From contig JCKJ01000001.1 of assembly GCA_000525025.1 (NCBI GenBank), forward strand, positions 620,001 to 684,000: a stretch of 64,000 nucleotides of DNA, given 5' to 3'. How positions within the stretch are numbered: position 1 is the first letter of the stretch; each line of letters opens with the position of its first letter. Both the position numbers and the translations under genes were made by a program. The DNA comes from Methylophilaceae bacterium 11. GTDB taxonomy: Bacteria; Pseudomonadota; Gammaproteobacteria; Burkholderiales; Methylophilaceae. This document shows positions 58,442-63,789 of the stretch, in pieces. The notes beneath the pieces were generated by a model that worked only from the letters and a program-made list of their open reading frames with translations, was not told the DNA's origin and made no database searches.

Positions 58442-60186
58442 TGCTTCACTCCCTTGACTTTAGGCAGCTCCATCTCTGACAAGCCTTTGCCATTTTCCAC
58501 CATTGGGAATACGTTCTCTTTTTGCTCGGTAATAAAGTCCATGAATACAAATTTATCTTTTTTCGCAAACGCTTCTTTTAGAGCACCTTCTACGTCGCTA
58601 GGCTGTGTGATTTGCATGCCAACATGGCCGTAAGACTCAGCTAACTTCACAAAGTCTGGCAAGCTGTCCATGTAAGATTCTGAGTAGCGGTCCTCATAGA
58701 AGAATTCTTGCCATTGACGCACCATGCCCAAATAGCGATTGTTCAGTAGAATCACTTTAATCGGCAGGTGATATTGTGCACAGGTCGACAGCTCCTGAAT
58801 ATTCATCTGTATGCTGCCTTCGCCTGTCACGCAGGCCACTTGTGCATTTCTGTCCGCAAATTGACAGCCCATTGCATAGGGTAAACCTACGCCCATGGTA
58901 CCCAAGCCACCAGAGTTAATCCAACGACGTGGTTTATCGAATTTGTAATATTGCGCAGCCCACATTTGGTGTTGACCTACATCTGACGTCACGTAGGCGT
59001 CACCTTTGGTGACTTCCCAAAGTTTTTCAATTACGTATTGTGGTTTGATAACAGTGCTGGATTGCTCGTAACGACCGCCATGTACCAAACGCCATTCGTT
59101 GATTTGTTTCCACCAGTCGCTGATGTCATTCTTTGCTTTTTCTTGCGCAAGAATCTCGTTCATCTCAGCCAGCACAGATTGCACGTGCCCAACAATTGGC
59201 ACATCTACTTTCACGCGCTTGGAGATGCTAGATGGGTCCACATCAATATGAATAATGGTGCGTTTTACGCTGCCAAAGTGATTGGGGTTGCCAATGACGC
59301 GGTCATCAAAGCGCGCGCCAACGGCAATCAACACATCACAGTTTTGCATCGACATGTTGGCCTCGTAAGTGCCGTGCATGCCTAACATGCCTACATATTG
59401 CTTATCAGTAGCAGGGTAGCCGCCTAAACCCATGAGGGTATTGGTCACAGGGTAGTTTAATGCACGTGCTAATTTAATCAGCTCTTCAGCGCCGTCACCC
59501 AATACCAAGCCACCGCCGGTATAAATCATTGGGCGTTTGGCTTCTAATAGTAATTTGACAGCTTTTTTAATTTGACCGCTGTGGCCTTTTAACACTGGGC
59601 TGTACGAGCGCATTTCTACCGTTTTTGGATAGATAAAGTCCGCGATGTGTGCTGTGATGTCTTTAGGGATATCGACAACTACCGGGCCAGGACGACCAGT
59701 TTTGGCAATGTAAAACGCCTTTTTAATGGTCGATGCGATGTCTTTCACATCTTTCACTAAAAAGTTGTGCTTAACACAGGGGCGCGTAACCCCCACCATA
59801 TCGACCTCTTGAAACGCATCCATGCCGATTGCAGGTACTGGCACCTGACCACTGATGACAACCAAAGGAATAGAGTCCATATAAGCTGTAGCGATGCCTG
59901 TGACTGCATTGGTGGCACCTGGGCCGCTGGTGACTAGCGCTACGCCTACTTCACCTGTTGCACGTGAGAATGCATCGGCCGCATGCACAGCCGCTTGCTC
60001 GTGACGCACTAAAATATGTTTGAAACCGTTTTGTTTGTAGATTGCATCGTAGATGTGCAACACAGCGCCACCCGGATAGCCAAAGACGAATTTGACTTTT
60101 TCCTCATTCAGGCAGCGAATAACGATCTCTGCACCAGTAATTGACTTGGTGCTAGTTTCGGCCGGGGGATGGGCTTTTGAATCCAT
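58438..60186 (-). CDS. ilvI: Acetolactate synthase large subunit IlvI
   Basis: A 582-residue thiamine diphosphate enzyme catalysing the first common step of valine, leucine and isoleucine synthesis. FGYPGGAVL and the catalytic Glu region (RHEQAAVHAADAFSRATG) are intact, and the cofactor motif reads GEGSIQMN. First gene of ilvI-ilvH-ilvC. Confidence 0.97.
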   Translation of the reverse strand: MDSKAHPPAETSTKSITGAEIVIRCLNEEKVKFVFGYPGGAVLHIYDAIYKQNGFKHILVRHEQAAVHAADAFSRATGEVGVALVTSGPGATNAVTGIATAYMDSIPLVVISGQVPVPAIGMDAFQEVDMVGVTRPCVKHNFLVKDVKDIASTIKKAFYIAKTGRPGPVVVDIPKDITAHIADFIYPKTVEMRSYSPVLKGHSGQIKKAVKLLLEAKRPMIYTGGGLVLGDGAEELIKLARALNYPVTNTLMGLGGYPATDKQYVGMLGMHGTYEANMSMQNCDVLIAVGARFDDRVIGNPNHFGSVKRTIIHIDVDPSSISKRVKVDVPIVGHVQSVLAEMNEILAQEKAKNDISDWWKQINEWRLVHGGRYEQSSTVIKPQYVIEKLWEVTKGDAYVTSDVGQHQMWAAQYYKFDKPRRWINSGGLGTMGVGLPYAMGCQFADRNAQVACVTGEGSIQMNIQELSTCAQYHLPIKVILLNNRYLGMVRQWQEFFYEDRYSESYMDSLPDFVKLAESYGHVGMQITQPSDVEGALKEAFAKKDKFVFMDFITEQKENVFPMVENGKGLSEMELPKVKGVKQ

Positions 60187-60223
60187 AAAACCTTGAATTT
60201 CGAAATAAATTGATGAACCCTCA

Positions 60224-60252
60224 ACATTAACTGTTTACGTTAAATAGGTCAA
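60224..60252 (-). promoter_or_regulatory. Candidate promoter of ilvIHC
   Basis: On the minus strand TTGACC (60247-60252), a 17-base spacer and TAATGT (60224-60229) lie about 38 bases before the ilvI start. The leader is too short for a classical attenuator peptide. Confidence 0.4.
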
Positions 60253-60289
60253 GTTTGTAGCAATAATTGCAAATTTTACGATGGCGCAG

Positions 60290-60318
60290 TTGACAATACA
60301 AATGAGAATCATTATTAT
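60290..60318 (+). promoter_or_regulatory. Fur-controlled promoter of the iron operon
   Basis: TTGACA (60290-60295), a 17-base spacer and TATTAT (60313-60318) make a strong sigma70 promoter. AATGAGAATCATTAT at 60301-60315 matches the core of the Fur box (AATGATAATCATTAT) at 14 of 15 positions and covers the spacer and -10, so iron-loaded Fur should repress it. Confidence 0.82.
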
Positions 60319-60342
60319 TTAGATTCTTTGGGAGATGAGTGC

Positions 60343-60657
60343 ATGATGATGCATACAAATCGGATGGCATATAGGAGTGGTTTGTACGATCCTGATTTGC
60401 CAACGGCAGGAGACGTCATGGCGTCGTTATGTTGTGTGGCAACACAGTACGCAAGTGAGCCGTCATTGGATTTGGCGTTGCTGGGGTATGGTTTGGCGCA
60501 GACGCTAACTGCCCCTGAGTATGCCGAGACAGATTTAATTGTGACGGTATCCAAGCAGTTGCTGGATCAGTGGCAATCGCTACTGCAAGCGCATCAGGAG
60601 TTTGAATTGCAGCAACACTCATCTGAATATGTGCCGCAATCGCTAACGGTGCAATAA
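60343..60657 (+). CDS. Unknown protein, first gene of the Fur-controlled operon
   Basis: A 104-residue protein I do not recognise. It starts MMMHTNRMAYRSGLYD at ATG 60343, eight bases after GGAG. It has a Cys pair (ASLCCVAT), no signal peptide and no clear membrane span, with a predicted helical C-terminal half rich in Gln and Leu. It begins only about 20 bases after the predicted transcription start at the Fur box and ends 39 bases before the S4 paralogue. It may take part in iron-starvation adaptation; a metal-related role for the Cys or His residues is speculation. Confidence 0.7.
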   Translation: MMMHTNRMAYRSGLYDPDLPTAGDVMASLCCVATQYASEPSLDLALLGYGLAQTLTAPEYAETDLIVTVSKQLLDQWQSLLQAHQEFELQQHSSEYVPQSLTVQ

Positions 60658-60696
60658 CAAGTATTGATAAAACAAGTTTCATAGAAAGTAGTCAAG

Positions 60697-61314
60697 ATGT
60701 CGAGATTAACAGGCCCTAGGGTCAAAATTATGCGTGCGCTTGGTGTGGATTTGCCTGGGCTTTCACGCAAAACGATAGAAGCAAGACCAACGCCACCGGG
60801 CCAGCACGGCAACAAGGCTTCACGTAAACGCCGTTCCGACTTTGGTGTGAAGCTGGTGGAGAAGCAAAAGATACGTTTTAACTATGGCTTAACCGAACGT
60901 CAAATGCGCATTTTGATTTTAGATGCGCGTAAAGGTAAAGAGCCAACAGGTGAGCGCTTATTGCAGTTGTTGGAACTGCGTATGGATAACGTAGCATTTA
61001 GAGCGGGCTATGCACCGACAGGTATTGCTGCTCGTCAACTGGTGAGCCATGGGCACATGCTGTTGAATGGTAAACGTGTGGATATTCCTTCTATCCGTTT
61101 AAAAGTGGGCGATCAAATTTCGCTGAAACCATCCAGCCAGCAAATCCCCATGGTGGTAGAGACGTTGAAAGCGCTACCGCTCGCACGTCCAGAGTGGTTA
61201 AGCTGGGATGAGCAACATAAAGTGGTGACCGTAGCGCATTTGCCGGCCATTGAAGATGTGCCGTTCCCGGTAGATGTACAACAAGTGGTGGAATATTACG
61301 CAAACCGCGTGTAA
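60697..61314 (+). CDS. Ribosomal protein S4 paralogue
   Basis: A 205-residue S4 protein. APGQHG-like PPGQHG, the YGLTERQMR block and the S4 RNA-binding domain (RMDNVAFRAGYAPTGIAARQLVSHGHMLLNGKRVDIPS) are present. It contains no cysteine and differs much from the E. coli-type S4 expected in a betaproteobacterium, being more like cysteine-free S4 of Gram-positive bacteria. It is not in an rpsM-rpsK-rpoA context, so it is almost certainly a second copy. Its position behind a Fur box suggests expression under iron limitation. Confidence 0.88.
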   Translation: MSRLTGPRVKIMRALGVDLPGLSRKTIEARPTPPGQHGNKASRKRRSDFGVKLVEKQKIRFNYGLTERQMRILILDARKGKEPTGERLLQLLELRMDNVAFRAGYAPTGIAARQLVSHGHMLLNGKRVDIPSIRLKVGDQISLKPSSQQIPMVVETLKALPLARPEWLSWDEQHKVVTVAHLPAIEDVPFPVDVQQVVEYYANRV

Positions 61315-61340
61315 TAAAGGATATGGAAGTTGTGAAGAAT

Positions 61341-61390
61341 TTAAAGCGTCCCTAACAGCGCTTTAAGTGTAGTACCGCATGGAAACATGC
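61341..61390 (+). repeat. Two consecutive stem-loops between the S4 paralogue and hemP
   Basis: TTAAAGCG / CGCTTTAA (61341-61366) has a ten-base loop; GCATG-GAAA-CATGC (61377-61390) has a GNRA-type tetraloop. Neither has a T-run. They could be processing or attenuation signals in the iron operon. Confidence 0.45.
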
Positions 61391-61479
61391 ATCTCCTTTT
61401 ATGGCTGCCTTCAACTTGATGTGTATACATGGGTTGATGTAAGTCGGCCAACTTTTTAGGGTGCTAAGCTAAGGCGATT

Positions 61480-61707
61480 GTGAACATGAAGATTATTACA
61501 AGTATTGCTTCAAAAGCCCTGCTAGATATGGATATTGCAATGGTGACAGATGCTGATGGATGCAGTAATCCAATCAAAATTACCTCTATTAAAAAATTAA
61601 ATAGTGAGAAGTTGTTTTGCGACGGTAACGAAGTAATGATTCAGCACCAAAATGAGACTTATGTACTGCGATTGACTAAACAAAATAAATTAATTCTGAC
61701 AAAATAG
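61480..61707 (+). CDS. hemP: HemP-like hemin uptake protein
   Basis: A 75-residue protein whose C-terminal half (VMIQHQNETYVLRLTKQNKLILTK region) is the HemP family signature. HemP is a small cytoplasmic protein encoded in haem uptake loci, and in some bacteria it promotes transcription of the haem receptor gene. GTG 61480 has AAGG five bases upstream; ATG 61486 is the alternative. It is followed by tonB. Confidence 0.85.
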   Translation: MNMKIITSIASKALLDMDIAMVTDADGCSNPIKITSIKKLNSEKLFCDGNEVMIQHQNETYVLRLTKQNKLILTK

Positions 61708-61746
61708 CGATATGAATCAACAGTATAAAATAGGGTTAAGCTGCGC

Positions 61747-62544
61747 ATGAAGTCAAATATTGCCACTCCAGTGACGTTGGTATACTCGGCAGAGCACGTT
61801 GTGTCTGTGCAGAAAAAGTCTGTGAAAAACCTTATTGCAGTGCAGTCGGAAGTGTTGATGCCTGTGCAGCCAGTGCTTGAGCGCCCCTTAAAATCAAAGA
61901 TCGCATTGCTGATGGTGGTGCTAGCACACGCAGCAAGCATTTATTATCTTGCCAAACAAAATCTAGAAACAATAGAGCCAGTAAAGCCAGCGCAACCGAT
62001 GCAAGTGAGTTTGATTGCGCCACCTACGCCAGAGCCCGAAGTCGTGCCGATTATTGAGCCGCCTAAACCAGTGGTACAGCCCAAACCTAAGCTTAAAAAA
62101 GTAGTTGAGAAAATTCAGCCGCTAGAAGTGCCAGCAGAGCGTATGGTGGAAGCCACAACGGTGGAGGTGAAAGAAGCAACGCCAGACCCAGTGCCGCCAG
62201 TGCAAGAGGTGGTTGAGGCCAAAGCGCCACCAAAATCAGAGCCTGTGGTGGTGGAAGAAAAAATCGAGCCACCCAAATTTGGTGTGGCGTACCTGCAAAA
62301 CCCAGAGCCTGAATATCCGCGCATGTCTAAGCGTTTAGGTGAGCAGGGGCGTGTGCTGTTGCATGTGGTAGTGGATACCGCAGGGAAGCCAACCGAGGTA
62401 ACGCTCAAAAAATCCAGTGGACATGAGCGCCTAGATGAGGCGGCGATTGAGGCTGTAAAAGGTTGGCGTTTTATTCCCGCAATGCGAAATAAAGTGGCGT
62501 TGATTGCTGCTGTGGATGTGCCCGTTAAATTCTCGTTACAGTAA
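61747..62544 (+). CDS. tonB: Energy transducer TonB
   Basis: A 265-residue TonB. A membrane anchor spans about residues 51-68 after an unusually long cytoplasmic N-terminus of some 50 residues. A Pro/Glu/Lys/Val-rich periplasmic spacer follows, then the C-terminal domain with PEYPRMSKRLGEQGRVLL and VKGWRFIPA. It transmits proton-motive force to outer-membrane receptors. Next are exbB and exbD. Confidence 0.94.
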   Translation: MKSNIATPVTLVYSAEHVVSVQKKSVKNLIAVQSEVLMPVQPVLERPLKSKIALLMVVLAHAASIYYLAKQNLETIEPVKPAQPMQVSLIAPPTPEPEVVPIIEPPKPVVQPKPKLKKVVEKIQPLEVPAERMVEATTVEVKEATPDPVPPVQEVVEAKAPPKSEPVVVEEKIEPPKFGVAYLQNPEPEYPRMSKRLGEQGRVLLHVVVDTAGKPTEVTLKKSSGHERLDEAAIEAVKGWRFIPAMRNKVALIAAVDVPVKFSLQ

Positions 62545-62605: not shown

Positions 62606-63367
62606 ATGAACCAAACCCAAGAATTTAACAGCTTAATGTTTATATTAGAGGCTGGACCTGTGGCGATTGCGGTGGCTGCACTGATGTTGGTGATGTCTGT
62701 GGCTAGCTGGTATTTAATGGTGACTAAATATGTGCAGTATGTGCGCATGAAGTCTGCTATTCAGCGCTATATTGCGCAGTTCTGGGCCGCGCCTAATTTG
62801 CAGGCAGCGCTGAACATTGAAGATGCACACTCAGCTGCCTATGCGTTGGCGCATCACGCAGCTACTGCGTCCCAGCATCACCATACGCATGTGCAAACGT
62901 CTGCCAATGCCTGTAGCCATGAAGAGTTTGTCGCACGCAGTATGCGTCGCGATATCGCAGCGACATCCAGCCAATTGGAGTCTGGTTTGTCTGTGTTGGC
63001 ATCGGTGGGTAGTGTTGCGCCGTTTGTGGGCTTATTTGGTACGGTATGGGGTATCTACCATGCGTTAGCTGCAATCAGCGCCAGTGGACAAGCGACATTG
63101 GACAAAGTAGCCGGCCCAGTGGGCGAGGCTTTGATTATGACCGCGATTGGGTTGGCTGTAGCGATTCCGGCTGTATTGGCATACAACGCATTTGTAAAAG
63201 CCAATCGTACGATACTGGGTCAGCTAGATACGTTTGCACAAGATTTGCATGTATTAATGACGACAGGGGCTACCTTAGCAAAAAAGCATACTAGTCCACG
63301 ACAAGCTGTTGTGGATGCCAATGCTACTACGCATGCTGCTAACAAAGTGAACGGAGTGCCTGCATGA
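62606..63367 (+). CDS. exbB: Biopolymer transport protein ExbB
   Basis: A 253-residue inner-membrane channel protein with three spans: about residues 18-38, 125-147 and 165-185. SVGSVAPFVGLFGTVWGI and EALIMTAIGLAVAIPAVLAYN are the MotA/TolQ/ExbB signatures. The cytoplasmic loop carries a histidine-rich insert (His83, 84, 91, 92, 93, 95). It overlaps exbD by four bases. Confidence 0.94.
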   Translation: MNQTQEFNSLMFILEAGPVAIAVAALMLVMSVASWYLMVTKYVQYVRMKSAIQRYIAQFWAAPNLQAALNIEDAHSAAYALAHHAATASQHHHTHVQTSANACSHEEFVARSMRRDIAATSSQLESGLSVLASVGSVAPFVGLFGTVWGIYHALAAISASGQATLDKVAGPVGEALIMTAIGLAVAIPAVLAYNAFVKANRTILGQLDTFAQDLHVLMTTGATLAKKHTSPRQAVVDANATTHAANKVNGVPA

Positions 63368-63789
63368 TTGGGAATAGTCAGCAATCAAGCATGCTGTCGG
63401 ATGCGCATACGCAGCCGATGAGTGAAATTAATACCACACCATTGGTTGACGTGATGCTGGTGCTGTTGGTGATTTTTATTATCACTGCGCCATTGTTAAC
63501 GCATGCCGTAAAGATTGATTTGCCACAAGCCACAAGCCAACCGTTGCCTGAAAAACCAGAAGTGATTTCATTGGCGATAGATGCAGCAGGCAAAACCTAC
63601 TGGAACGATGCGCCGATAGAGCAAGCAACGCTTAAATCACGTTTAGAGGCCGCTGCCAAACAGACGCCGCAGCCAGAATTGCAAATTCGTGCGGATAAAG
63701 ATACACGCTATCAATTGTTGTCAGAAGTGATGGCGGACGCACAGAACGTTGGGATTACTAAGTTAGGCTTTTTAAGTGAGCCGAAATAA
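63364..63789 (+). CDS. exbD: Biopolymer transport protein ExbD
   Basis: A 141-residue bitopic protein. EINTTPLVDVMLVLLVIFI contains the membrane Asp29 needed for proton use. ATGA overlaps the exbB stop. It forms the TonB-ExbB-ExbD motor with its neighbours. Confidence 0.95.
   Translation: MIGNSQQSSMLSDAHTQPMSEINTTPLVDVMLVLLVIFIITAPLLTHAVKIDLPQATSQPLPEKPEVISLAIDAAGKTYWNDAPIEQATLKSRLEAAAKQTPQPELQIRADKDTRYQLLSEVMADAQNVGITKLGFLSEPK

Follow-up and report, generated by a model that had tools for sequence, protein, structure and literature searches.

A candidate Fur-controlled, cysteine-free paralogue of ribosomal protein uS4 in an iron-uptake operon of Methylophilaceae

Metal-dependent exchanges of ribosomal proteins

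Exchanges of ribosomal proteins under Zur control (L31, S14, L28, L33 and others) pair a metal-binding copy (C+) with a metal-free copy (C-) that stands behind a metal-sensing repressor and is made at metal shortage, according to the accessible parts of a study by Chen, Roberts and Luthey-Schulten in 2009 (PMC3087516). A comparable arrangement is described here for S4p, a cysteine-free (C-) paralogue of ribosomal protein uS4. Its gene is located in a window of 64,000 nt from Methylophilaceae bacterium 11 (contig JCKJ01000001.1, positions 620,001 to 684,000), and coordinates given without a genome or locus are those of this window. A C+ S4 is encoded in the main ribosomal operon and the C- S4p elsewhere, behind a predicted box of a metal-sensing repressor, here of the Fur type. 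Relative to the Zur exchanges, iron and Fur would replace zinc and Zur, and an iron-sulphur (Fe-S) cluster, assigned by homology, would replace the zinc ion. From the comparison of genomes we consider it probable that S4p belongs to a Fur-controlled, iron-sparing exchange, in which a cluster-free uS4 is made at low iron in place of a [4Fe-4S] uS4.

S4p is of the same gene type as the C-(IV) S4 paralogues, which Chen et al. described as a zinc-free type. In the accessible parts of that paper (PMC3087516), a table lists Methylobacillus flagellatus as having lost C+ and carrying C- copies alone, none of them in the alpha operon, and Nitrosomonas europaea with both C+ and C-. The accessible main text does not contain the words iron or tonB and leaves the regulation of S4 paralogues open; the present analysis adds a predicted Fur box, the surrounding iron operon and an Fe-S rationale. 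The same source describes the C-(V) S4 of Clostridia, likewise an additional S4 without cysteines, encoded away from the alpha operon in genomes that also have a C+ copy. It is a different C- type, which is up in sporulation in two species and has no iron link in the text available.

In uS4 of Thermus thermophilus, a (CXXC)-(CXXXXC) pattern holds an Fe4S4 cluster, and the sections of the two reports at hand name no cluster-free partner (PMC10450194, PMC11791143). One of them describes what ribosomal Fe-S clusters do as poorly understood (PMC11791143). The preliminary description of the locus, made from the sequence of the window, missed this link, which would explain the biology: the C+ S4 motif is one that holds an Fe-S cluster in Thermus. 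That description also knew of no established iron-responsive exchange of S4. A literature search, mostly without subscription papers and bioRxiv preprints, agrees in that it found no Fur-controlled S4 and no Fe-S based S4 exchange, and the Nitrosomonas passages checked hold no S4 data; the paralogue type itself was published in 2009, within a zinc framework (PMC3087516, accessible parts).

The two S4 genes and the promoter box

S4p is a full-length uS4 match above curated cut-offs, with 225.8 bits against NCBIfam NF003717 (cut-off 116) and 207.5 bits against TIGR01017 (cut-off 177.2), and it has the Pfam domains Ribosomal_S4 and S4. The AlphaFold model has a mean predicted local distance difference test score of 82, with residues 1–43 mostly low. 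Foldseek ranks ribosomal uS4 chains first, with query template modelling scores up to 0.75, i.e., the S4 fold is recovered; the C-terminal domain compares to 1qd7_C with a root-mean-square deviation of 1.1 over 158 columns. Conserved positions are present across 21 aligned S4p sequences. Twenty of these have no cysteine and one (L080) has a single cysteine. The ratio of nonsynonymous to synonymous substitution rates (dN/dS) is 0.009–0.076 in nine pairs, one of which has dS > 1.5, and a tenth pair is saturated. S4p is under purifying selection.

The genome (2.79 Mb, one contig) yields one other S4 in an S4 search, at genome position 379823 beside rpoA, and thus has the additional rpsD on which the earlier designation of S4p as a paralogue depended. 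This normal rpsD has the context rpsM-rpsK-rpsD-rpoA. Its product carries four N-terminal cysteines, CxxC...CxxxxC, all in register with Thermus uS4. We infer that the normal uS4 of this genome bears a [4Fe-4S] cluster; the cluster has been shown in Thermus and would be present here by homology only. The identity between S4p and the normal copy is 42–43% over about 178 aligned positions.

The Fur-type box fills the spacer between the -35 and -10 hexamers of the operon promoter (Table 1). It scores 24.5 bits with a position weight matrix (PWM), compared to 12.5 for the best non-overlapping site on either strand of the 64 kb; the matrix was made from 28 family sites that include this box, and the score is in part by construction. 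With its own genus left out of the PWM the box has 22.8 bits, a score equalled in none of 300 shuffles of the 700-bp upstream region. It matches 14 of 19 positions of an E. coli-type Fur consensus (1 of 100 shuffles equal), and 14 or 15 matches are also found at two other plus-strand places in the window. The leave-one-genus-out PWM took the place of a consensus-counting scan because degenerate boxes of genus g22 scored near background in the latter; the PWM sites were first picked by that same consensus. The promoter hexamers alone prove nothing, since the scan finds 2 promoter-like sites and shuffles yield 3.6. The 17-nt spacing and the same register of the Fur box in the promoter are found in 18 of 19 in-family loci inspected. 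The genome has a strong Fur gene and a weaker second Fur-family gene (31.8 bits) that could be Zur. Together, a predicted box overlapping the promoter, a Fur gene in the genome and iron genes downstream are consistent with a member of the Fur regulon.

Occurrence of S4p and of the box in related genomes

S4p (at least 61% identity) is present in 54 of 150 sampled genomes of the family, with Methylotenera, Methylophilus, Methylovorus and Methylobacillus among the named relatives. The PWM scan covered 37 of the 54, i.e., 28 with rpsD, 8 without, and genome G011, which was left outside the 28/8 comparison. A box was called within 700 bp upstream, with the leave-one-genus-out PWM, where at most 3 of 300 shuffles were as good. 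It is found before S4p at 27 of the 28 loci whose genome keeps rpsD, the miss being L008 (8/300 shuffles). The rpsD partner is C+ in all 27 genomes where it was read. In the 28th, G120, the contig stops within rpsD; a reading of this as a truncated rpsD remnant was rejected, the locus having 1631 nt instead of 3126, which was taken as a contig edge. G120 is counted as rpsD-bearing, and the box count without it is 26/27.

In eight genomes (genera g2, g11 and g17) NF003717 finds no full-length S4 besides S4p, and the gap between rpsK and rpoA is 59–87 nt, compared to 667–758 nt in four rpsD-bearing genomes measured. Two of the eight, G001 and G062, are single-contig assemblies with 100% estimated completeness. 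S4p relatives with 74–77% identity appear to carry all translation in these genomes, and on this comparative evidence the S4p type is able to act as the cell's S4. None of the eight has a Fur box before S4p. This loss fits an iron switch because a sole S4 cannot be under iron repression, and predicted iron control of S4p goes with having a cluster-type partner. Genome G062 has two equal-scoring S4p copies (C1:915328 and C1:1058360, loci L116 and L117), 143 kb apart, and no rpsD, a distance that agrees with the reported 140-kb repeat of Methylobacillus flagellatus KT.

Among 399 genomes of the order, S4p-like sequences with at least 53% identity are found in families f1, f6, f21, f29, f39 and f46, five of them beyond the home family. 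A C+ housekeeping S4 is present in 19 of 24 S4p-bearing genomes outside the family, and only the C- paralogue was found in the other 5, of which three are titled metagenome-assembled genomes (MAGs) and the remaining two have 64 and 78% completeness; a housekeeping S4 of the C-(I) kind was found in none of the 24. Betaproteobacteria with both genes include Azospira, Thauera, Zoogloea, Methyloversatilis and Denitromonas. Counted by family, S4p was seen in 6 of the 12 whose housekeeping S4 is C+ and in none of the 16 where it is C- (Fisher p = 0.0025, a test in which one to several genomes were classed per family and the relatedness of families was ignored). The sample has 51 families; 28 were classed, f19 was set aside for its odd N-terminus, and the other 22 are outside the count. 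In f19 the S4 of L092 and L096 is neither C+ nor of the usual C- form; the N-terminus in L092 is CRQMGENLWGREKC.

There are 58 out-of-family loci (L144–L201). Setting apart the 19 titled Myxococcota, delta, Oligoflexales or unnamed leaves 39. The DNA retrieved around S4p shows iron-related or orf1-like neighbours at 27 of these 39 compared to 1 of the other 19, a count that a weak tonB match beside L154 would raise to 2. A Fur box is within 700 bp upstream at 22 of the 39, some of which are close relatives. At L080, from family f6, the box is 116 bp before S4p, and its register to the promoter is that seen in the home family. Of the Myxococcota, delta or Oligoflexales loci, 15 had enough upstream sequence for the scan, and none of these showed a box; L179, with 45 nt upstream, was excluded from this count, and L181, L182 and L197 (no box) were excluded from both out-of-family box counts.

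A FastTree phylogeny of 181 S4 sequences, a check that the preliminary description had proposed, places the S4p of beta- and gamma-titled genomes in one clade (94 tips, support 0.965), which is nested in a grade of C- S4 from Myxococcota and Oligoflexales. This suggests a single entry from a Myxococcota/Oligoflexales-like source with subsequent spread. Chen et al. favoured Cyanobacteria as donor, in the parts of the paper at hand (PMC3087516); the tree contains no cyanobacterial sequence and does not discriminate between these sources. The S4p of L156, from a gammaproteobacterial MAG, pairs with the g12 copy (0.98).

Gene neighbourhood, alternative explanations and significance

The order of genes behind the box is orf1, S4p, hemP, tonB, exbB, exbD (Table 1), as first described, with S4p in second position.

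Table 1. Features of the S4p operon and the basis of each assignment
Feature	Position	Strand	Basis
sigma-70-like promoter, TTGACA-N17-TATTAT (candidate)	60290..60318	+	11/12 hexamer matches
Fur-type box, ACAAATGAGAATCATTATT (predicted)	60298..60316	+	PWM and consensus scans; fills the -35/-10 spacer
orf1, first gene of the operon, 104-aa conserved small protein	60343..60657	+	no Pfam or NCBIfam family above cut-off
S4p, cysteine-free (C-) uS4 paralogue, 205 aa	60697..61314	+	open reading frame (ORF), profile matches, structure model
hemP, hemin uptake protein family	61480..61707	+	PF10636, 60.3 bits (cut-off 25)
tonB	61747..62544	+	profile matches
exbB	62606..63367	+	Pfam MotA_ExbB; NCBIfam exbB and tolQ models below cut-offs
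exbD	63364..63789	+	Pfam ExbD/TolR; NCBIfam exbD and tolR models below cut-offs

No second Fur-like site was found in the scan just upstream of hemP or tonB, and co-transcription of orf1-S4p-hemP-tonB-exbBD is therefore plausible. In the family, neighbours were counted at 30 loci (L003–L032) with flanks up to 1.5 kb: orf1 is beside S4p at 25, hemP at 23, and tonB is within the flank at 21. Loci of genus g11 are without orf1. At the Methylotenera loci L124, L125 and L127, which have longer flanks, the S4p start is followed by tonB at a distance of about 2.2 kb. Neither hemP nor tonB is seen at L013, L030, L041 and L049. A second hemP-like stretch follows the first in genus g7 (L010, L012, L015, L017 and L124), and at L112, the locus of G011, a PepSY-type-looking membrane protein gene is upstream of S4p, as judged by eye.

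In several families a member of the orf1 family is the immediate neighbour of S4p, on one side or the other, and these relatives are also without a Pfam name; homologues in other families include L135:4673–4984, L083:2155–2439 and L170:5609–5911. The product of orf1 may be a partner dedicated to S4p or to the iron operon. Elsewhere in the genome, near position 2747036, a 99-aa ORF with several cysteines (L267:1561–1860) has a Fur-like site with 2 mismatches just upstream. By eye, small ORFs resembling it are downstream of S4p in L136, L137 and L114.

The iron-sparing exchange would operate as follows. When iron is plentiful, Fur-Fe on the promoter box would keep the operon off, and ribosomes would be built with the normal uS4 and its CxxC...CxxxxC motif, carrying [4Fe-4S] by homology to Thermus. 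When iron is short, Fur would release the box, S4p would be made together with the HemP-TonB-ExbBD uptake machinery, and new 30S subunits would take the cluster-free S4p. Each ribosome would then cost four iron atoms and one cluster assembly less, and ribosome assembly could continue at times when no clusters can be made; uS4 is one of the primary assembly proteins. We infer the Fur repression, the co-transcription, the cluster of the partner, the incorporation into ribosomes and the iron-sparing benefit. The earlier suggestion of an iron-regulated S4 paralogue has gained support from the conserved, promoter-locked box, the iron-uptake neighbours, the Fur gene and the loss of the box in the sole-S4 clade.

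A number of observations weigh against the iron-sparing exchange. The eight sole-S4 genomes fall into a single clade of the S4 tree (support 0.84), so that the joint loss of rpsD and box counts as a single evolutionary event, and the Fisher p of 3e-7 for 27/28 compared to 0/8 overstates the case. In G011 (L112, genus g12) both S4 genes are present but S4p is without a Fur box, and no convincing box is found in Nitrosomonas L135 or in one Methylotenera MAG, L136 (29/300 and 17/300 shuffles, respectively, equal the best site). The Methylophaga MAG L156 has a strong box, yet only a C- S4 was found. Outside the family, 17 of the 39 loci have no box within 700 bp upstream; several of these follow other iron genes and may lie deep in operons, which does not account for the others. 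The box pattern is weakly specific, with 6 sites in the genome at no more than 2 mismatches compared to 2 for the reversed pattern. Three of the 6 are upstream of ORFs (the S4p operon, a TonB-receptor-like ORF and a small ORF) and the remaining 3 are not. Two of four terminator-like sites in a scan of 60150–61800 are between S4p and hemP (61377–61390 and 61432–61449). In the literature checked, no betaproteobacterial uS4 is reported with an Fe-S cluster, and in the parts of their paper at hand Chen et al. call the four-cysteine uS4 site zinc-binding (PMC3087516).

The zinc-binding description favours an exchange in which the C+ uS4 of these mesophiles binds zinc and S4p is a zinc-saving copy, and the second Fur-family gene could encode Zur. 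Such an exchange is quite improbable: the box is of the Fur type, the operon is for iron uptake, and the Thermus site holds Fe4S4 in the report sections available (PMC10450194, PMC11791143). Chen et al. also looked in 26 genomes and saw no Zur site beside S4 paralogues, though they had no Zur motif for Clostridia (PMC3087516). The Fur-type box also bears on a backup role, with S4p replacing uS4 when Fe-S clusters are destroyed, as by oxidative stress, low iron being only one trigger. Identical gene anatomy would be expected for it, and Fe-S loss and low iron are linked; the type of the box argues against it, and we rate it as unlikely.

The remaining alternatives differ in what S4p would do once made. 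S4p is only 42–43% identical to the normal copy and uS4 influences decoding accuracy, so a specialised ribosome is conceivable, in which S4p at low iron mainly alters decoding or favours certain mRNAs and does not save iron. The chance of this is small, in that close relatives of S4p are the sole S4 detected in a whole clade, so that the type supports general translation, and S4p occurs along with the cluster motif in the partner, a pattern not expected from a decoding role. In other bacteria S4 binds RNA and regulates its own synthesis, and S4p might likewise bind the operon mRNA, or simply ride along, with no ribosomal role. An Rfam scan of 60000–62000 gave no match, a result uninformative on a regulator role either way. 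This last alternative is very improbable, given that S4p is the sole S4 found in 8 genomes, has the S4 fold with conserved positions across 21 sequences, and has the low dN/dS values noted above in 9 pairs. The preliminary description had left the choice between remodelling of ribosomes and a regulator; the comparative evidence favours the ribosomal role.

For the wider group, we lean towards a Fur-driven exchange of uS4 across a broad range of betaproteobacteria, with a permanent iron-free takeover in the Methylobacillus clade, where the box and the cluster gene would have been dropped. Zinc-dependent exchanges of ribosomal proteins are well known, and an iron-dependent one was not met in the literature search. 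If the iron-sparing exchange is true, the uS4 cluster would be a regulated iron cost, and translation would depend on iron status by a new route. It would also provide a direct, testable answer, in culturable methylotrophs, to the question raised in 2009 on the control of C- S4 paralogues.
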